Positions 12,850-33,873 of a stretch of 64,000 nucleotides of DNA are shown here, one piece after another. The translations under genes and the position numbers were made by a program. Source of the DNA: Pseudomonas paralcaligenes (lineage in GTDB: Bacteria > Pseudomonadota > Gammaproteobacteria > Pseudomonadales > Pseudomonadaceae); contig NZ_BPFX01000025.1 of NCBI RefSeq assembly GCF_019655855.1, positions 1 to 64,000 on the forward strand, given 5' to 3'. The notes below the pieces were generated by a model that was given only the letters and a program-made list of their open reading frames with translations, was not told the origin of the DNA and searched no databases. The stretch's first letter is position 1; every line of letters begins with the position of its first letter.

Positions 12850-13581
12850 TCAGATATCGCGCAGCTCGAAGCGGGCGAACAACTGTCGCAGATAAGACCA
12901 CAGTTCAATGGCCTCGGCCGGGGTCGGAGCGTTGCCCAGGGTGGGGTCCAGCATGCGTCCGGGGCGCGCCAGTTGCACGGCGAAGCGCTGCACACCGACG
13001 GCGGCCAGGCGCTCGGCCAGGCGTTGCAGGCGCTGGCAGTCGAACAGGTGCCAGTGCACCGTGGTGCGACACTCGAAGTCCACGCCGCTGGCGATGAGCA
13101 GCTCCAGGCTTTCCCAGTTGACCCTCCCGCTGCCGGAGACGCCGGTGATCAGCGCCGCGTCCTCTTCCAGCGCCTTGATGTCGAAGCCGACCCAGTCGCA
13201 CAGCGGCAGCACGCGGCGCAGCGCGTTCGGTTTGATGCCGGCGCTGTGCAGGCCGATCTTGAAGCCCAGCTGGCGCACCCGGCGCATGGCGGCCGGCAAG
13301 GCAGGCTGCAGGGTGGCCTCGCCGCCGCTGAACACCACGGCCTGGAGCAGCCCTTGGCGCTTGCGCAGGAACGCGACGACCTCATGCCAGGCGACCGCGC
13401 CCTCCGCCTGCGCCCTGATCAGCTCCGGGTTGTGGCAGTAGCGGCAGCGCCAGGCGCAACCCTGGCAGAACAGCACGCAGGCGATGTGGTCGGGGTAGTC
13501 GATGGTGGTCAGCGGCAACAGCCCACCGACCTTCAGCGAGAATTCGCGCAGGTGCTCCGACCGGCTGCAGGAGGCATTCAT
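12850..13581 (-). CDS. nrdG: Anaerobic ribonucleotide reductase activating enzyme (radical SAM)
   Basis: 243 residues. It generates the glycyl radical on class III ribonucleotide reductase. The radical-SAM cluster motif C-x3-C-x2-C is CAWRCRYC, preceded by LTTIDYPDHIACVLFCQG. The SAM-binding glycine motif is FSGGEATLQ. It belongs to the longer NrdG2-type group (about 230-240 residues), not the short E. coli type. GGAG is 7 nt before the ATG at 13581. It lies 257 nt downstream of the glycyl-radical ORF, past a hairpin and a REP element, so its level may be set separately from nrdD. Confidence 0.9.
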   Translation of the reverse strand: MNASCSRSEHLREFSLKVGGLLPLTTIDYPDHIACVLFCQGCAWRCRYCHNPELIRAQAEGAVAWHEVVAFLRKRQGLLQAVVFSGGEATLQPALPAAMRRVRQLGFKIGLHSAGIKPNALRRVLPLCDWVGFDIKALEEDAALITGVSGSGRVNWESLELLIASGVDFECRTTVHWHLFDCQRLQRLAERLAAVGVQRFAVQLARPGRMLDPTLGNAPTPAEAIELWSYLRQLFARFELRDI

Positions 13582-13838: not shown

Positions 13839-13988
13839 CTATCGCGGCTCGCTGAAATGCCGGCGCTCGCGGTGTTCGGACTGCTTGCCCGGGTTGAAGG
13901 CAGATACCGGGCGGTGATAGCCCATCACCCGGGTCCAGACTTCGCAGCGCTGGCGTTGGGCTTCGGGCAGTTGCATGGCTTGTTTCAT
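13839..13988 (-). CDS. Separately encoded glycyl-radical segment of NrdD
   Basis: 49 residues, with AGGAG 9 nt before the ATG. The core CEVWTRVMGYHRPVSAF followed by NPGKQSEHRERRHF is the C-terminal glycyl-radical loop of class III ribonucleotide reductase (E. coli NrdD has RVCGYLG...FNAGKQEEVKRR). The radical glycine would be Gly23. The 671-residue nrdD product upstream stops after its zinc motif and has no such loop, so the enzyme appears to be made as two polypeptides. The ORF starts 34 nt after the nrdD stop in a different frame, so readthrough cannot join them. It is too short to be called by most gene finders. Confidence 0.85.
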   Translation of the reverse strand: MKQAMQLPEAQRQRCEVWTRVMGYHRPVSAFNPGKQSEHRERRHFSEPR

Positions 13989-14022
13989 GGGATGTTGCTC
14001 CTTGCGGTGGGTGGACTCTGGT

Positions 14023-16038
14023 TCAACCGCAGGCGCCGCAGCACGACTGCTTGTGCAGCAGTGCCTCGTCGCATTTCGGGCAGAACTCGTGTTCGCCTGC
14101 CAGGTAGCCGTGCACCGGGCAGATGGAGAAGGTGGGCGTCACGGTCAGGTACGGCAGGCGGAACCGGCCTAGCGCCGTGCGTACCAGCTGCTTGCACGCC
14201 TGCGCCGACGAGATGCGCTCGGCCATGTACAGGTGCAGCACGGTGCCGCCGGTGTACTTGCACTGCAGCGCGTCCTGCAGCTCCAGCGCCTCGAACGGGT
14301 CTTCGGTGAAGCCCACCGGCAGCTGCGAGGAGTTGGTGTAGTAAGGCGCCTCGGGGGTGCCGGCCTGGACGATATCGGGATAGCGCTTCTGGTCTTCCTT
14401 GGCGAAGCGGTAGGTGGTGCCCTCGGCCGGCGTCGCCTCCAGGTTGTAGAGGTGGCCGCTGTCCTCTTGGAAGCGCACCAGGCGTGCACGCACATGGTCC
14501 AGCAGCTGCAGCGCGATGCGCCGGCCGGCCTCGCTGTGCAGGCCTTCGGTGTCGCCCGAAAAGTTGCGCAGCATCTCGTGCAGGCCGTTCACGCCGATGG
14601 TGGAGAAGTGGTTGCGCAGGGTGCCCAGGTAGCGCCGGGTGTAAGGATAGAGGCCGGCGTCCATGTGGTGCTGGATCACCTTGCGCTTGACCTCCAGGCT
14701 CTCGTAGGCCATCTGCAGCAGCTCGTCCAGGCGCCGCAGCAGGCCCGGCAGGTCCTGCCGATGGAGGTGGCCGAGGCGCGCGCAGTTGATGGTCACCACG
14801 CCCAGCGAGCCGGTCTGCTCGGCCGAGCCGAACAGGCCGTTGCCGCGCTTGAGCAGCTCGCGCACGTCCAGCTGCAGGCGGCAGCACATGGAGCGCACCT
14901 GGTTGGGCTGCATGTCCGAGTTGAGGAAGTTCTGGAAGTACGGCAGGCCGTAGCGCGCGGTCATGTCGAACAGGCGCGTGGCGTTGTCGCTGTCCCAGGG
15001 GAAGTCGTGGGTGATGTTGTAGGTCGGGATCGGGAAGGTGAACACCCGGCCCATGGCGTCGCCGGCCATCATCACCTCGATGTAGGCGCGGTTGATCAGG
15101 TCCATCTCCGCCTGCAGCTCGCCGTAGCAGAACGGCATCTCCACCCCGCCGATCACCGGCACCTGCTCACGCAGGTCCTCCGGGCAGACCCAGTCGAAGG
15201 TCAGGTTGGTGAAGGGCGTCTGGGTGCCCCAGCGCGACGGCACGTTGAGGTTGTAGATGAACTCCTGCAGCGCCTGGCGCACCTGCTCGTAGTCCAGCCG
15301 GTCGTTGCGCACGTAGGGCGCCAGGTAGGTGTCGAAGGAGCTGAACGCCTGGGCGCCGGCCCACTCGTTCTGCAGCGTGCCGAGGAAATTGACCATCTGC
15401 CCCAGGGCGCTCGACAGGTGTCTGGGCGGCCCCGCCTCGACCCGCCCCGGGATGCCGTTGAGCCCCTCGTGCAGCAGCGTGCGCAGGGACCAGCCGGCGC
15501 AGTAGCCGGCGAGCATGTCCAGGTCGTGGATGTGCAGGTCGGCCTCGCGGTGGGCGCGGCCGATCTCGGGGCTGTAGACCTCATCCAGCCAGTAGTTGGC
15601 GGTGACCTTGCCGGAGACGTTGAGGATCAGCCCGCCCAGGGAATAACCCTGGTTGGCGTTGGCCTGCACGCGCCAGTCCTCGCGGCGCAGGTATTCGTTC
15701 ATCGACGCGGCCACGTCGACCAGGGTCTTGTGCTCGCGGCGCAGGCGGCCGTGGCGCTCGCGATAGACGATGTAGGCCCTGGCGGTGTCGTAGTAGCCGG
15801 CCTCCATCAGCACCAGCTCGACCTTGTCCTGCACCTGCTCCACGCCCAGGCTGCGGAATTCCAGCAGCCGGGACAGCACCGCGTCGGCCAGCGCCTTCGC
15901 TTCGTACGGCCCGAACTGGCCGGTGGCCTGGCCCGCGGCGGCGATCGCGCGCTCGATCTTGCCGAGGTCGAACGACACCTCGCTGCCGTCGCGCTTGAGC
16001 AGCGTGCGGGGCCGGTAAGGCGGTTGCTGCGGATTCAT
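14023..16038 (-). CDS. nrdD: Anaerobic (class III) ribonucleoside-triphosphate reductase, catalytic part
   Basis: 671 residues. It makes dNTPs without oxygen. An ATP-cone at the N-terminus (TLLKRDGSEVSFDLGKIERAI, residues ~12-32, continuing to ~100) gives allosteric control. The barrel domain includes SMCCRLQLDVRELLKRG with the active-site cysteine. The C-terminal zinc site is CPVHGYLAGEHEFCPKC. The protein ends KQSCCGACG and lacks the RVxGY glycyl-radical loop, which is in the next ORF (13839-13988). AGGGGG stands ~7 nt before the ATG. Transcription is probably ANR-activated and NrdR-controlled. Confidence 0.94.
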   Translation of the reverse strand: MNPQQPPYRPRTLLKRDGSEVSFDLGKIERAIAAAGQATGQFGPYEAKALADAVLSRLLEFRSLGVEQVQDKVELVLMEAGYYDTARAYIVYRERHGRLRREHKTLVDVAASMNEYLRREDWRVQANANQGYSLGGLILNVSGKVTANYWLDEVYSPEIGRAHREADLHIHDLDMLAGYCAGWSLRTLLHEGLNGIPGRVEAGPPRHLSSALGQMVNFLGTLQNEWAGAQAFSSFDTYLAPYVRNDRLDYEQVRQALQEFIYNLNVPSRWGTQTPFTNLTFDWVCPEDLREQVPVIGGVEMPFCYGELQAEMDLINRAYIEVMMAGDAMGRVFTFPIPTYNITHDFPWDSDNATRLFDMTARYGLPYFQNFLNSDMQPNQVRSMCCRLQLDVRELLKRGNGLFGSAEQTGSLGVVTINCARLGHLHRQDLPGLLRRLDELLQMAYESLEVKRKVIQHHMDAGLYPYTRRYLGTLRNHFSTIGVNGLHEMLRNFSGDTEGLHSEAGRRIALQLLDHVRARLVRFQEDSGHLYNLEATPAEGTTYRFAKEDQKRYPDIVQAGTPEAPYYTNSSQLPVGFTEDPFEALELQDALQCKYTGGTVLHLYMAERISSAQACKQLVRTALGRFRLPYLTVTPTFSICPVHGYLAGEHEFCPKCDEALLHKQSCCGACG

Positions 16039-16128: not shown

Positions 16129-16142
16129 TTGATCACGATCAA
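16129..16142. promoter_or_regulatory. ANR/FNR box for nrdD
   Basis: TTGATCACGATCAA is a perfect TTGAT-N4-ATCAA site. A minus-strand -10 element TAGATT (16105 to 16100) would place the start near 16093, centring the box about 41.5 bp upstream. This is the standard spacing for class II activation by ANR when oxygen is low. Confidence 0.85.
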
Positions 16143-20591: not shown

Positions 20592-22645
20592 GTGACGCCC
20601 TGCTGGCCGAACTGGCCGACGCCGCCGGCCTCAGCATCGACTGGACGGACGCCAACGGGCGCCCGCAACGGGTCAGCCCGGAGGCCCAGCGGCAACTGCT
20701 GGAAGCCCTCGGCCACCCGGCCGCAGACCTGCGGCAGATCGAGAGCAGCCTGGCCGAGCTGAAACAACGCGCCGCCGAGGCCGCCACCCCGCCGCTCCTC
20801 ACCGCCGAACTGGGCCAGCCGATTCACATACCCGGCCAGCGGGCGGACAGCGCCTACAAACTGACCCGCGAGGACGGCGAGACGCTCTCCGGCCGGCTGG
20901 ACGACCAGGCCCGCGTGCCGGCCATCGACCTGCCCGGCTACCACCGCCTGGACATCGGCGACCAGCGCGTCACCCTGGCCGTGGCGCCGCCGGCCTGCCG
21001 CAGCGTCGAGGAGTTGTGCGGCAAGCGCCACGCCTGGGGCCTGACCGCCCAGCTGTACGCCCTGCGCCGCCCCGGCGACGGCGGCCTGGGCGACACCCGC
21101 GCCCTGGAGGACCTGGCCCGCCACGCCGCCAACCTGGGCGCCGACGCCCTGGCCATCAGCCCGGTGCACGCCATGTTCGCCGCCGCCCGCGACCACTACA
21201 GCCCCTACTCGCCCTCCAGCCGGCTGTTCTTCAACGTGCTGCACGCCGCGCCGGGCGCCGTGCTCGGCAGCGACGCGGTGGCCCGCGCCATCGCCGCCTG
21301 CGGGCTGCAGGACGAGATGGCCCGCCTGGAGCGCGACGAACTGATCGACTGGCCCGCCGTGAGCGAGGCCCGCCAGCGCCTGCTGGCCCAGCTCTACCGC
21401 GACTTCCGCGAGAGCGACGGCAGCCTGCTCGGCGACTTCACCTCCTTCTGCGACCAGGGCGGCGACGCCCTGCTCCAGCACTGCCGCTTCGAGGCGCTGC
21501 ACGGCCACATGCTGCGCCGCGGCGAATCCGGCGACTGGCGCGACTGGCCCGAGGCGCTGCGCGACCCACGCAACCCGGCCGTGACCCGCTTCGCCGCCGA
21601 CTACGCCGACGAGGTCGGCCTGCACGCCTTCGGCCAGTGGCTGATCGCCCGCGGCCTGGAGAACGCGCAGACGGTCGCCACCGGCGCCGGCATGGGCATC
21701 GGCCTGATCGCCGACCTGGCGGTGGGCACCGCCTGCAGCGGCAGCCAGGCCTGGACCCGCCAGGACGAGCTGCTGCCCCGGGTCACGGTCGGCGCGCCGC
21801 CGGACATCCTCAACCGCGCCGGGCAGAACTGGGGAGTGTCCGCCTTCTCTCCCGACGGCCTGCGCCGCCACGGCTTCCGCGCCTTCATCGAAATGCTCCG
21901 GGCCAACCTGGCCCACGCCGGCGGCATCCGCATCGACCACATCATGGGCCTGCAGCGCCTGTGGGTGATCCCCCACGGCACGGCCCCACAGGACGGCGCC
22001 TACCTGCGCTACCCGCTCACCGACCTGCTGCGCCTGCTGGCGCTGGAATCCCACCGCCACCGCGGCCTGGTCATCGGCGAGGACCTCGGCACCGTGCCCG
22101 AGGGCCTGCGCGAGGAACTGGCGCGGCGCAACATCCTCGGCATGCGCGTGCTGCTGTTCGAGCAGCAGGACGGCCGCTTCGTGGCGCCGCGCCAGTGGCC
22201 GCGCGACGCCCTCGCCACCACCACCACCCACGACCTGCCCAGCCTCAAGGGCTGGCTGGCCGGCCACGACATCGACTGGCGCCTGCGCGCCGGCCACAGC
22301 CGCGCGGACCAGGAAGACGGCGACCGCGCCGAACGCCGGCGCGAGCGCGCGGCGCTGGTCGAGGCCCTGGGCGAGCACGCCGGTCTGGCGGACGGCGAAG
22401 ACGCCGAGGCCTGCCTGGAAGCCGCCATCGGCTACCTCGGCGGCACCCCGGCGCCGCTGGTGCTGCTGCCCCTGGAAGACGCCCTCGGCGACGACCAGCA
22501 GCCCAACCTGCCCGGCCCCGGCGACGAGCACCCCAACTGGCGCCGGCGCCACGCCCTGCCGGTGCGCGAGCTGCTCGACACCGAAGCCACCCGGCGGCGC
22601 CTGCAGCGCCTCGCCGACGCGCGCCGGGAGGCCGCCGATGACTGA
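20588..22645 (+). CDS. malQ: 4-alpha-glucanotransferase (amylomaltase)
   Basis: 685 residues, GH77. It transfers glucan chains between maltodextrins, feeding TreY and recycling short chains. GH77 motifs visible are SPVHAMFA, DHYSPYSPSSRLFFN, ADLAVGT (nucleophile region ahead of GAPPD), GIRIDHIMGLQRLWVIP, IGEDLGTVP, and TTTTHDLPSLKGWLAG. About 150 N-terminal residues form the extension of the longer MalQ type. It overlaps treZ by 4 nt and treY by 8 nt. Confidence 0.94.
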   Translation: MSDALLAELADAAGLSIDWTDANGRPQRVSPEAQRQLLEALGHPAADLRQIESSLAELKQRAAEAATPPLLTAELGQPIHIPGQRADSAYKLTREDGETLSGRLDDQARVPAIDLPGYHRLDIGDQRVTLAVAPPACRSVEELCGKRHAWGLTAQLYALRRPGDGGLGDTRALEDLARHAANLGADALAISPVHAMFAAARDHYSPYSPSSRLFFNVLHAAPGAVLGSDAVARAIAACGLQDEMARLERDELIDWPAVSEARQRLLAQLYRDFRESDGSLLGDFTSFCDQGGDALLQHCRFEALHGHMLRRGESGDWRDWPEALRDPRNPAVTRFAADYADEVGLHAFGQWLIARGLENAQTVATGAGMGIGLIADLAVGTACSGSQAWTRQDELLPRVTVGAPPDILNRAGQNWGVSAFSPDGLRRHGFRAFIEMLRANLAHAGGIRIDHIMGLQRLWVIPHGTAPQDGAYLRYPLTDLLRLLALESHRHRGLVIGEDLGTVPEGLREELARRNILGMRVLLFEQQDGRFVAPRQWPRDALATTTTHDLPSLKGWLAGHDIDWRLRAGHSRADQEDGDRAERRRERAALVEALGEHAGLADGEDAEACLEAAIGYLGGTPAPLVLLPLEDALGDDQQPNLPGPGDEHPNWRRRHALPVRELLDTEATRRRLQRLADARREAADD

Positions 22646-25445
22646 CCTGCGCGCCACCTTGCGCCTGCAGTTCCACCAGGGCTTCACCCTGCACGACGCG
22701 GTGCCCCTGGTGCCCTACTTCTCGCGCCTGGGCATCAGCCACGTGTACGCCTCGCCGCTGCTCACCGCGCGGCCCGGCTCCACGCACGGCTACGACGTGG
22801 TCGACCCGACCCGGATCAACCCCGAGCTGGGCGGCGAGCCCGGCCTGGTGCGGCTGGTCGAGGCCCTGCGCGGGCGCGGCATCGGCCTGATCCTCGACAT
22901 CGTGCCCAACCACATGGCGGTCGGCGGCGACGCCAACCCCTGGTGGCTGGACCTGCTGGAATGGGGCCAGGACAGCCCCTTCGCCAAGTTCTTCGACATC
23001 CAGTGGCACTCCCACGACCCACTGCTGGCCGGCCAGCTGCTGGTGCCCTTCCTGCGCAGCGACTACGGCGAAGTGCTGGCCAACGGCGAAATCCCCCTGC
23101 ACTTCGACCCGGAGCGCGGCACCTTCTACGCCCAGCACTTCGAGCACCGCCTGCCGCTCACCCCGCCGAGCTACGGCGAGATCCTGCGCGGCAGCGAGGA
23201 CGGCGCGCTGATGCTGCTGGGCGCACGCTTCGAGGCCCTGCGCGACGACCCCGACGCCTGGCAGACGGCCCAGGGCCTGTGCGCCGAACTGGCCCAGCTG
23301 GGCCGCCCGGAGGCCGGCGGCGACGCCGTGCGCCACGCCCTGGCCCGCTACCGATGCGACAGCGAGGAAGGCCTGCAGCGCCTGCACCGGCTGCTGGAGC
23401 GCCAGCACTACCGGGTGGCCAGCTGGCGCACCGCGGCGGACGACATCAACTGGCGCCGCTTCTTCGACATCAACGAACTGGGCGGCTTGCGGGTCGAGCG
23501 CCCGGAAGTCTTCGAGCTGACTCACGCCAAGATTTTCCAGCTGATCGAACAGGGCCTGGTCGACGGCCTGCGCATCGACCACGTGGACGGCCTGGCCAAC
23601 CCGCGTGCCTACTGCCGGCGCCTGCGCCGCCGCGTCGACCTGCTGCTGGCCGGGCGGCCGCAGCCCGAGCAGGGCTTCCCGATCTACGTGGAGAAGATCC
23701 TCGGCCACGGCGAGCAATTGCCCGGCGACTGGAACACCTCCGGCTGCACCGGCTACGCCTTCATGAACCAGGTGTCCCTGCTGCAGCACGACCCGCGCGG
23801 CGAACAGCCGCTGCGGGCGCTGTGGAGCGAGCTGAGCGGGCGCCCGGCGGCGTTCGAGGACGAGGCGCTGGAAGCGCGCCGCCTGGTGCTCACCACCTCC
23901 CTGACCGGCGACCTGGAAGAAGTGGCCCAGGGCCTGCTCCAGGTGGCGCGCAACGACATCGCCACCCGCGACCTGACCCTGGCCTCGATCCGCCGCGCGC
24001 TGCTCGAACTGATCGTGCACTTCCCGGTGTACCGCACCTACGCCAACGCCTGCGGCCGCTCCGAGCAGGATCGCCAGGTGTTCGGCCAGGCCCTGGAAGG
24101 CGCGCGCCGGACCCTGGCCGAGGCCGACTGGCCGCTGCTCGAACACCTCGACCGCTGGCTCGGCGGCCAGCCGCTGCACGAACTGCCGCCGGGCCGCCCG
24201 CGCAAGCTGCGCGCCCGGGTGCTCGGGCGCTTCCAGCAGCTCACCTCACCGGTGGCGGCCAAGGCGGTGGAAGACACCGCCTGCTACCGCGCCGGCGTGC
24301 TGCTGTCGCGCTACGACGTGGGCTTCGACGCCGAGCACTTCAGCTACCCGGCGGAGCACTTCCACCAGTGCTGCAGTGAACGCGCCGCGCGCCTGCCGGA
24401 CAACCTGCTGGCCACCGCCACCCACGACCACAAGCGCGGCGAGGACAGCCGCGCGCGCCTGGCGGTGCTGAGCGAGCGCGCCGACTGGTACGCCGGGCGG
24501 GTGCGCCGCTGGCAGGAGCTGGCCGCACCGCTGCGCGCCGGCCTGGCGGAAGACGCGCCGGATGCCGGCGAGGAGCTGATCCTCTACCAGGCCCTGCTCG
24601 GCAGCTGGCCGCTGGACCTCGACGTGGATGACGACGCCGGCCTGCGCGCCTACCTGGAGCGCCTGCTCACCTGGCAGCGCAAGGCCCTGCGCGAGGCCAA
24701 GCTCAATAGCAGCTGGAGCGCGCCGAACGAGGCCCACGAGGCGGCCTGCCACACCTTCCTCGAACGCCTGCTGACCGCGCCCGAGGGCCGCGAACTGCGC
24801 CGGGAGCTGGCCGAAGCGGTGGCCGCCATCGCCCCGGCCGGCGCCCTCAACGGCCTGGCCCAGTGCCTGCTGCGCCTGACCGCGCCCGGCGTGCCGGACC
24901 TGTACCAGGGCTGCGAATACTGGGACTTCAGCCTGGTCGACCCGGACAACCGCCGCCCGGTGGACTTCGCCGCCCGCGTCGAGTCCCTCGACGGCCTGGC
25001 CGAGCCGGGCGAACTGCTCGCGCACTGGCGCGACGGCCGGGTCAAGCAATGGCTGATCGCCAGCGTCCTGGCCCTCCGCCACGCCCGCCACCCGCTGTTC
25101 GCCCGGGGCGACTACCGGCCGCTGGCGATCGAGGGCGAGCACGCCGAGCGGGCACTGGCCTTCGTCCGCCGCCTGGGCGACACCCACCTGGTGGCCGTGG
25201 TGCCGCGCCTGGCCGCCGGCCTGCTGGGCGACCAGCCATTGCCCCACGTGCCCGCCGAACGCTGGGGCGACACCCGCGTGGTGCTGCCGCCGGAACTGGC
25301 GGGCCTGAGCCTGACCAGCATCCTGCCGCCCGGGCAACTGGACAATCGCGGCCACCTGCCGCTGGCCGAAGTGCTGGCGCAGTTCCCCGTCAACCTGCTC
25401 TGCCTCAAACCCCATCTCCAGGAGCCTAGCCATGAGCATCGATGA
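22638..25445 (+). CDS. treY: Malto-oligosyltrehalose synthase
   Basis: 935 residues, GH13. It rearranges the reducing end of maltodextrin to an alpha,alpha-1,1 bond. TreY signatures: RLQFHQGFTLHDA, YFSRLGISHVYASPLLTARPGSTHGYDVVDP, ILDIVPNHMAVGGDANPWWLD, WRRFFDINELGGLRVE, LVDGLRIDHVDGL (nucleophile region), VEKILGHGEQLP, and TATHDHKRGEDSRARL. Its 3' end overlaps the DUF2934 gene by 14 nt. With TreZ it forms the glucan-to-trehalose route. Confidence 0.95.
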   Translation: MTDLRATLRLQFHQGFTLHDAVPLVPYFSRLGISHVYASPLLTARPGSTHGYDVVDPTRINPELGGEPGLVRLVEALRGRGIGLILDIVPNHMAVGGDANPWWLDLLEWGQDSPFAKFFDIQWHSHDPLLAGQLLVPFLRSDYGEVLANGEIPLHFDPERGTFYAQHFEHRLPLTPPSYGEILRGSEDGALMLLGARFEALRDDPDAWQTAQGLCAELAQLGRPEAGGDAVRHALARYRCDSEEGLQRLHRLLERQHYRVASWRTAADDINWRRFFDINELGGLRVERPEVFELTHAKIFQLIEQGLVDGLRIDHVDGLANPRAYCRRLRRRVDLLLAGRPQPEQGFPIYVEKILGHGEQLPGDWNTSGCTGYAFMNQVSLLQHDPRGEQPLRALWSELSGRPAAFEDEALEARRLVLTTSLTGDLEEVAQGLLQVARNDIATRDLTLASIRRALLELIVHFPVYRTYANACGRSEQDRQVFGQALEGARRTLAEADWPLLEHLDRWLGGQPLHELPPGRPRKLRARVLGRFQQLTSPVAAKAVEDTACYRAGVLLSRYDVGFDAEHFSYPAEHFHQCCSERAARLPDNLLATATHDHKRGEDSRARLAVLSERADWYAGRVRRWQELAAPLRAGLAEDAPDAGEELILYQALLGSWPLDLDVDDDAGLRAYLERLLTWQRKALREAKLNSSWSAPNEAHEAACHTFLERLLTAPEGRELRRELAEAVAAIAPAGALNGLAQCLLRLTAPGVPDLYQGCEYWDFSLVDPDNRRPVDFAARVESLDGLAEPGELLAHWRDGRVKQWLIASVLALRHARHPLFARGDYRPLAIEGEHAERALAFVRRLGDTHLVAVVPRLAAGLLGDQPLPHVPAERWGDTRVVLPPELAGLSLTSILPPGQLDNRGHLPLAEVLAQFPVNLLCLKPHLQEPSHEHR

Positions 25446-32528: not shown

Positions 32529-33508
32529 GCCAGCAGACCCAGACCAACCCCTGGCTGCGCTGGGGCAAGCGCCTGCTCACGGCGCTCTTCTTCATCCTGG
32601 TGCCGGTGCTGCTGTTCATGCTGGTGAAGAACCTCGAATGGAGCGAGGTGGTGCAGGCGCTGAAGAGCTACAGCCCGCTGATGCTGGCTGGCTGCGTGGC
32701 GATCACCGCCACCAGCTTCCTGCTGTTCAGCAGCTACGACCTGCTCGGCCGCGCCTACACCGGCCACCGCCTGCCGGCCCGGCAGATTCTGCCGCTGACC
32801 TTCGTCTGCTACGCCTTCAACCTCAACCTCAGCTCCTGGGTCGGTGCCATCGCCCTGCGCTACCGGCTGTATTCGCGGCTGGGGCTGGGCGTGGCCACCG
32901 TCACCCGCATCCTCACCTTCAGCCTGATCACCAACTGGCTGGGCTACATGATCCTCGCCGGCGGGGTGTTCTCCCTGCGCCTGGTACGCCTGCCCGAGCA
33001 ATGGGAGATCGGTGCCACCGCGCTGCAGGCGATCGGTATCGGCCTGCTGCTGGTCGCCGCCACCTACCTACTGGCGTGCCGCTTCGCCACGCGCCGTTCC
33101 TGGTCCTGGCGCGACCACGAGGTGACCCTGCCGTCGCTGAAACTGGCCCTGGCCCAGGCCGGCATGTCGATGTGCAACTGGTCGCTGTCCAGCCTGCTGG
33201 TGTTCCTGCTGCTGCCCAAGGGCGTCGACTACCCCACGGTGCTCGGCATCATGCTGGTCAGCAGCATCGCCGGGGTGGTCACCCATATCCCAGCCGGGCT
33301 CGGCGTGCTGGAGGCGGTGTTCATCGCCATGCTCCAGGACCAGGTGCCCAAGGGCGCCGTGCTGGCCGCGCTGATCGGCTACCGCGCCATCTACCTGCTG
33401 CTGCCGCTGCTGGTAGCCGTGGTGGTCTACCTGGTGCTGGAGAAACGGGCGAAGAAGCTGCGGCAGAAGTCGGAGCGCGCCGGCCGGCTGGAGTCGGAAG
33501 GCGCCTGA
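32525..33508 (+). CDS. YbhN-like integral membrane protein (LPG-synthase TM family)
   Basis: 327 residues with about eight membrane segments, UPF0104/AglD family, related to the flippase-like part of MprF. Typical motifs: FCYAFNLNLSSWVGAIALRYRLYSRLG and THIPAGLGVLEAVF. Paired with clsB as in E. coli ybhN-ybhO. It may move or regulate a lipid, but the function is not established. Confidence 0.88.
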   Translation: MSQQTQTNPWLRWGKRLLTALFFILVPVLLFMLVKNLEWSEVVQALKSYSPLMLAGCVAITATSFLLFSSYDLLGRAYTGHRLPARQILPLTFVCYAFNLNLSSWVGAIALRYRLYSRLGLGVATVTRILTFSLITNWLGYMILAGGVFSLRLVRLPEQWEIGATALQAIGIGLLLVAATYLLACRFATRRSWSWRDHEVTLPSLKLALAQAGMSMCNWSLSSLLVFLLLPKGVDYPTVLGIMLVSSIAGVVTHIPAGLGVLEAVFIAMLQDQVPKGAVLAALIGYRAIYLLLPLLVAVVVYLVLEKRAKKLRQKSERAGRLESEGA

Positions 33509-33552
33509 GTTGGTGTATAACGGCGCGCTGAACCCTCAGCGCCCGTACCGCC

Positions 33553-33873
33553 ATGCTTCTTGTCGCCAGCCGCAACGTCGCGCCCACCGCCGAGCACGCC
33601 ACCCATCACCTGTACGCCCTGCATCTGGACCGGGCGAGCGCCACGCCTTTCGTCTTCTCCGAGTCCATCGGCGGCGGCCATGGAGAACGGGGCGGCAGCA
33701 TCGCCCTGGGCCTGAGCGATCTGGAGCGCTGGGCGGGCGACTGGCGCGAGCATGTGCGCCTGGCGGGCGCGCCCCATCTGGTGGCCGTGGTCGAAGCGGC
33801 CCTCGCAACGGGCTCCCAGGCCGATCTCGTCGAACGTCTGCTCCGTGAAGCCGGCCGGGAGCGCGCATCATGA
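33553..33873 (+). CDS. Hypothetical protein coupled to a SatA-like acetyltransferase
   Basis: 106 residues, no family recognised. It is soluble, with a central GGGHGERGGS loop, and acidic-helical after residue 50. The stop overlaps the acetyltransferase start (ATGA), which argues that it is a real, co-translated gene. Possibly a partner or self-protection accessory, but nothing in the sequence shows this. Confidence 0.6.
   Translation: MLLVASRNVAPTAEHATHHLYALHLDRASATPFVFSESIGGGHGERGGSIALGLSDLERWAGDWREHVRLAGAPHLVAVVEAALATGSQADLVERLLREAGRERAS

Follow-up and report, generated by a model that had tools for sequence, protein, structure and literature searches.

Class III (anaerobic) ribonucleotide reductases are textbook one-chain radical enzymes. 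At an nrdD locus of Pseudomonas paralcaligenes, the large nrdD product stops just past its zinc ribbon, without a glycyl-radical loop, and this raises the question of where the radical glycine of the enzyme is to be found. The original prediction, made from the DNA alone, was that NrdD is split into two genes and that the loop is encoded by a separate ORF of 49 codons. This claim was followed up by computational analysis of the window (the whole 64,000-nt stretch of contig NZ_BPFX01000025.1 that was analysed), of the genome to which it belongs, and of related bacterial, plasmid, and virus sequences. As set out below, the locus very probably encodes a class III reductase whose catalytic protein comes from two genes, with the radical glycine on the small one.

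Layout of the nrdD locus

The features of the locus are listed here by their positions in the window.

12850..13581, minus strand: nrdG, radical-SAM activase of the NrdG2 type, 243 aa (NCBIfam TIGR02495, E 1.9e-62, above cut-off)
13839..13988, minus strand: small ORF, 49 aa, putative stand-alone NrdD glycyl-radical domain (profiles and conservation)
13920..13922, minus strand: GGC codon of Gly23, the predicted radical glycine (in register with T. maritima Gly621)
13989..14022, minus strand: 34-nt spacer between nrdD and the small ORF
13998..14003, minus strand: AAGGAG Shine-Dalgarno sequence of the small ORF, 9 nt before its ATG
14023..16038, minus strand: nrdD, large subunit, 671 aa (ORF and NRDD profiles, predicted fold)
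14071..14121, minus strand: zinc-ribbon ligands CPVH...CPKC (Cys640, His643, Cys653, Cys656; from the sequence)
14881..14886, minus strand: Cys385-Cys386 codons in an SMCCR motif, counterpart of T. maritima SCCR (Cys329/330)
15499..15501, minus strand: Cys180 codon in a GYCAGWS motif, aligned with the T. maritima YCFAYTL segment
15748..15999, minus strand: ATP-cone domain, residues 14-97, overall-activity regulation (Pfam PF03477, E 6.4e-20)
16129..16142, no strand assigned: perfect Anr/Fnr-type palindrome TTGATCACGATCAA (TTGAT-N4-ATCAA), about 90 nt upstream of nrdD

The nrdD product ends with CPVHGYLAGEHEFCPKCDEALLHKQSCCGACG, followed by a TGA stop, and the small ORF, which carries WTRVMGYHRPVSAFNPGKQSEHRERRHF, lies in a frame that differs from that of nrdD. 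ORF calls agreed with the original prediction on the coordinates and on both ORFs (671 aa; 49 aa, 34 nt downstream, in another frame and with its own AAGGAG). The next gene after the small ORF encodes the cognate activase NrdG, as expected of a class III reductase. The sequence TTGAT-N4-ATCAA, which we take to be the Anr/Fnr-type consensus, has one match in the whole window, compared with 0.01 expected from shuffled sequences.

Division of the NRDD domain between the two ORFs

Comparison of the two products with complete NrdD, a check proposed with the original prediction, revealed that the profiles divide between them without a real gap. In Pfam NRDD (562 positions), the long ORF matched model positions 2-529 (2e-170) and the small ORF positions 531-562 (3.8e-9), so that the two ORFs abut on the model; in NCBIfam TIGR02487 (581 positions), the corresponding ranges were 2-548 and 547-580. 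The NRDD domain is covered end to end by the two ORFs together, with barrel and loop not on one chain, and a radical-glycine loop of the RVxGY type was found only in the small ORF, at Gly23. Among Pfam families, the small ORF matched NRDD and, as a chance hit, DUF6191 (E up to 1), with no match to Gly_radical (GrcA/PFL-type). Moreover, the genome of origin (5.47 Mb, 351 contigs) contained no second NRDD protein beyond the two pieces.

As regards other reductases, this genome has one PF02867 match to a large subunit (G000 C7:467983-469590); its frame of 1042 codons also matches the ATP-cone, and the protein is probably of class I. No match to a separate class II reductase was found in the genome.

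In a 31-row alignment of the large subunit, Cys180 and Cys385-386 were invariant, as were the zinc-ribbon residues C640, H643, and C653; Gly644, in the HGYL motif of the zinc ribbon, was invariant as well. In T. maritima NrdD, according to PMC4493059, the SCCR motif comprises Cys329/330, the zinc ribbon follows the last strand of the barrel and precedes the C-terminal loop, its motif CxxxHx6CxxC stands just ahead of the radical loop, and Gly621 dips into the barrel. The split point in the window falls directly after the zinc ligands. For the large chain alone, AlphaFold gave, from the shallow 31-row alignment, a model with a pLDDT of 76.9 and a pTM of 0.72, whose best PDB match was a class III reductase (8p2c, E 8.8e-26). 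In this model, pLDDT was below 50 at residues 638-652 and 660-671, that is, in the zinc ribbon and at the C-terminus, which fits a missing partner but also the shallowness of the 31-row alignment. The corresponding region of a fused relative, P0133, was modelled better (pLDDT in the 70s to 80s), a contrast that is suggestive only, as the two alignments were both shallow and different.

Conservation and translation signals of the small ORF

Gly23 of the small ORF aligned with T. maritima Gly621 with a weak score (E 0.56) and in exact register. Gly23, Arg20, Arg26, Pro27, Asn32, Gly34, Lys35, Glu38, and Arg42, residues that were not forced by a motif, were constant in 158 of 158 gap-free alignments. 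When motif-forced columns were excluded, pN/pS over 137 cellular cores was 0.236; in a motif-selected set of 138 cores, it was 0.190 in the real frame, compared with 0.338 to 2.88 in the other five frames. Purifying selection on the small ORF is strong. Cys15 was also considered as a signature of splitting, with cysteine present in 153 of 156 alignments and all three exceptions (L133, L149, and L130) fused; this candidate was dropped because fused Caldicellulosiruptor-type proteins have cysteine there too.

Translation signals were assessed in 140 distinct split loci, the window included (150 before duplicates were removed). Most of these were drawn from lists ranked by similarity (one of which contributed the best 80 of its 577 entries), and the sample is therefore weighted to Pseudomonas. 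The small ORF starts with ATG in 139 loci and with TTG in one. A Shine-Dalgarno sequence of at least four bases precedes it in all 140, a count that is somewhat favourable because the best-scoring start candidate was taken at each locus. Relative to nrdD, the small ORF is in frame 0 in 25 loci, in frame 1 in 54, and in frame 2 in 61; nrdD stops with TGA in 115, TAA in 18, and TAG in 7; and the distance between the two genes ranges from -38 to 410 nt.

In one genome, G456, the parts lie well apart. Its loop ORF (C4:33667-33768) adjoins an NrdG match (33057-33623), the nrdD match is at 22532-24490, and the stretch of about 9 kb between this pair and nrdD holds six opposite-strand ORFs of 247-463 aa. 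No loop-like sequence was found after G456 nrdD. If the assembly is right, the two products of G456 must be translated separately and act in trans. The split is not a sequencing error, since the product is conserved across loci that differ in frame, stop codon, and spacing, and since one genome has the small gene elsewhere. On the points named beforehand as able to overturn the original prediction, we thus found a long product with no loop, a genome with no other NrdD, and a split that is real in the DNA.

Distribution of split and fused NrdD

A survey of Pseudomonas for the short ORF had likewise been suggested. NrdD was present in 31 of 149 sampled congeners, and all 31 had the radical segment, 30 of them as a separate match and one (G015) in a single match that runs through an in-frame TGA. 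At wider range, 16 of 398 genomes in the phylum set and 33 of 369 in the class set scored above the PRK08270 cut-off, each count including the genome of origin. Among the 42 other genomes with this NrdD subfamily in the union of the two sets, 36 are split, each with a radical-domain ORF, five are fused (G175, G261, G522, G751, and G853), and one is cut by a contig end (G862). Taken together with the abutting profiles and the single NrdD of the genome, this recurrence bears out the claim that the radical-glycine segment has a gene of its own.

The split was also found in annotated plasmid records of Cupriavidus necator H16, Azospira, Bradyrhizobium, Sulfuricurvum, Shinella, Aquabacterium, Thiothrix, and Sulfuricystis. 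Fused, one-chain relatives that join both parts came from Actinomyces and Acidiphilium, plasmids among them, and from Geoalkalibacter. The predicted two-gene class III reductase is widespread, and the named split hosts are nearly all facultative anaerobes or denitrifiers. In the loci whose annotation was examined, nrdD, the small ORF, and nrdG form one operon-like run. Because RefSeq labels the small gene nrdD in several plasmids, the split is already visible in annotation; a 48-aa relative in P. aeruginosa is listed as 'oxidoreductase'.

A small ORF was not seen nearby in six of 167 loci with a body match. Three of these (L097, L103, and L172) are truncated where their contigs stop; L136, at 25% identity, is a member of a different NrdD subfamily; and L120 is the G456 case described above. 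In the last, L089 (P. lini), an array of near-identical repeats runs from straight after the nrdD stop to the contig end, which accounts for the small ORF not being seen. Desulfuromonadales NrdD proteins of 659-663 aa are likewise devoid of the loop; P0134, P0196, P0214, and P0237, which are of this type and 661-663 aa long, end at the zinc ribbon, with the last CxxC degenerate. A search for a partner of these proteins found none, yielding one 89-aa protein; absence of the loop therefore need not always be paired with this small ORF.

The relationship of split and fused proteins was analysed in a 57-row tree, with the root chosen on P0138/P0136 and with two long branches of an earlier 67-row tree (L131 and L134) dropped. 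Under this root, fused proteins lie outside the split group, and there are fused rows inside it too. A single origin of the split was considered and rejected: one clade of all split rows failed the AU test (p 1.5e-6), since the split Sulfuricurvum groups with the fused G522. When Sulfuricurvum was left out, one split clade was not rejected (p 0.175). The rejection implies that the split or fused state changed more than once. The two states thus interconvert, as fits parts that can work either joined or apart.

Other interruptions of nrdD were seen in passing. The NrdD body of P0159 contains an intein Pfam domain (PF14890), and in G668 and the virus records G919 and G926, the NRDD match falls into pieces within one long frame; these interrupted bodies are perhaps inteins as well. 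In the Bradyrhizobium japonicum plasmid NZ_CP126016.1, the nrdD match is in two pieces over an annotated IS3-like ISRj2 transposase.

Solitary radical domains in virus contigs

One genome, G795, has a second, solitary radical-domain ORF (L190, G795:C3:15000-22000) besides a normal operon, with SSB, RecT-like, and reductase C-terminal sequences as neighbours. For this reason, IMG/VR was searched. The window query gave 77 loci, and 80 of 140 were kept from the G795 query, resulting in 142 loci (L191-L332) on 118 contigs. The flanks showed a short loop ORF without NrdD body or NrdG in 135 of the 142; in the other seven, the motif was absent (three), lay in a long frame (one), or had a body nearby (three). 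When contigs of at least 30 kb, which may themselves be fragments, were searched over the whole record, the radical piece was present in all 46, and a reductase body was found in G910, G919, and G926 only. None of these 46 contigs had a class I or class II large subunit. Virus contigs that carry the NrdD radical piece, 43 of 46 without the reductase body, are new here. Neighbours in five of the virus loci (L199, L204, L218, L238, and L256) included portal, head protease, tape measure, integrase, and endolysin, as well as terminase, DNA polymerase, and thymidylate synthase.

Among 90 distinct virus cores, there was no variation at Arg12, Met22, Arg26, Pro27, Lys35, Glu38, and Arg42 (the search motif itself imposed Gly23, Asn32, and Gly34, and in part Lys35), and pN/pS was 0.36 with the forced columns excluded. 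As a counterpoint, no Shine-Dalgarno-like string stood at the chosen start in 25 of 93 virus cores, and in three, no start was in view. Among the isolated phages of INPHARED, protein queries returned 12, 3, 11, and 2 records, mostly annotated NrdD, and no clear solitary copy was found among them. PHROG 4132, a phage family to which PHROGs assigns no function, matched both the window small ORF (6.2e-9) and the virus copies (8.3e-10 to 2e-5); its profile is longer (179 positions), with the radical part at 116-154. The solitary copies may be phage spare parts for the NrdD of the host. We lean slightly towards a broader proposal, in which Proteobacteria have a detachable radical cartridge, many uncultivated phages carry the cartridge alone so as to keep or restore the anaerobic deoxynucleotide supply of the infected host, and PHROG 4132 is this spare radical subunit.

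Alternative explanations

The two ORFs could in principle be one gene, expressed as a fused protein through programmed frameshifting or stop readthrough. Such a reading would suit the 25 of 140 split loci in which the two ORFs share a frame and are separated by stops alone, and also the G015 match through a TGA. However, it must contend with all three frame offsets, a varying stop codon, and spacings of -38 to 410 nt, with a Shine-Dalgarno sequence and start ahead of the small ORF in 140 of 140 loci, with the G456 copy about 9 kb away beside nrdG, and with the 43 of 46 virus contigs that have the small ORF without any body. We consider it extremely improbable. That the small ORF is a pseudogene, an assembly error, or a chance ORF has next to no probability; its short length favours this and nothing else does, whereas the same layout recurs in independent assemblies of many genera, pN/pS is 0.236 over the 137 cores, and RefSeq annotates the small ORF as nrdD in several plasmids.

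Two further readings accept the small ORF as a gene and assign it another role. The radical might reside on Gly644, a residue of the large subunit in the zinc-ribbon HGYL motif, with the small ORF as an accessory. A 1999 J. Bacteriol. report on the enzyme of A. eutrophus (C. necator) H16 reportedly pointed to Gly650 of NrdD; residue 650 of H16 NrdD (L113, pHG1) is the glycine of CPTHGYLAGEH, and HGYL resembles a radical loop of the CGYL type. However, HGY is found also in fused relatives, where the true loop follows at a later position, and we therefore assign it to the zinc ribbon. The invariance of Gly644 fits either reading, and it is Gly23, not Gly644, that falls on Gly621 of T. maritima, the radical site known from crystallography, and is kept in 158 of 158 alignments. 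A radical on Gly644 thus seems very unlikely. Alternatively, the small ORF could be a repair part of the YfiD/GrcA kind for an otherwise complete NrdD rather than a constitutive subunit. PMC8683613 describes YfiD and T4 Y06I as doing this for oxygen-cut PFL, and the solitary virus copies do resemble spare parts. Against this, the genome of origin has no complete NrdD, and the large product has no loop in 36 of 42 genomes, so that the small ORF would be needed from the start; in the annotated loci examined, it is also part of an operon-like run that includes nrdD and nrdG. A mere repair role has very little chance of being correct.

A two-subunit model

We favour, with high confidence, a two-subunit class III reductase, a model supported by the structure of the genes, by homology and conservation, by independent translation signals, and by the one trans arrangement. 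NrdD-large has the ATP-cone, a 10-stranded barrel that holds the active-site cysteines, and the zinc ribbon, and NrdD-small (49 aa) has the glycyl-radical loop. The two would be translated separately, after which NrdD-small would dock beside the zinc ribbon and thread its loop into the barrel. NrdG, with S-adenosylmethionine, would take a hydrogen from Gly23 and so leave the radical on the mini-subunit, from which it would be transferred to the active-site cysteine in the manner of one-chain NrdD. With the oxygen-labile residue on a cheap subunit of 5-6 kDa, an oxygen-cut copy could be swapped for a new one without remaking the 75-kDa chain. An inexpensive radical carrier that can be exchanged in this way would be of use to cells exposed to oxygen.

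If the mini-subunit is indeed separable, barrel and radical could be purified, labelled, mutated, and mixed apart, and the radical-transfer and activase-docking steps would become directly testable. The split would also explain why survey alignments and crystallography of this NrdD branch would look truncated.

Comparison with known systems

Like the one-chain NrdD of E. coli, phage T4, T. maritima, and Prevotella copri, the window system has the NRDD profile, ATP-cone, zinc ribbon, active-site cysteines, and radical loop, with the NrdG activase adjoining; what sets it apart is a radical loop encoded by a gene of its own, with a separate start. In a search of open-licence literature, no description of a split NrdD or of a virus-borne NrdD radical domain was found, and priority for the split is uncertain. 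A reductase spread over two consecutive genes is known in the same genus from the class II NrdJa/NrdJb of P. aeruginosa, both parts of which are needed (PMC4520616 and PMC4009431), although that is a B12 enzyme of another class. PMC4520616 presents split NrdJ as the sole case of a divided reductase in a free-living organism, a statement that a two-gene NrdD would correct.

The original prediction likened the small ORF to YfiD acting for pyruvate formate-lyase. YfiD/GrcA of E. coli and Y06I of phage T4 are described in PMC8683613 and PMC12338860 as autonomous glycyl radical cofactors of PFL. Like the small ORF, they are small stand-alone glycyl-radical domains that complete a barrel enzyme, and one of them is viral. 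The likeness therefore holds as a way of working. It does not extend to family membership, as the small ORF matches NRDD and not the GrcA/PFL family, with no Gly_radical match in Pfam; nor does the window large subunit have a radical domain of its own to replace, whereas YfiD/GrcA and Y06I rescue a PFL whose own loop has been cut by oxygen. Spare-part proteins for other glycyl-radical enzymes have been speculated upon (PMC8683613). The solitary virus copies are direct candidates for such parts, serving DNA synthesis rather than a fermentation enzyme, and the proposed phage cartridge would be the reductase counterpart of what T4 Y06I is for PFL.
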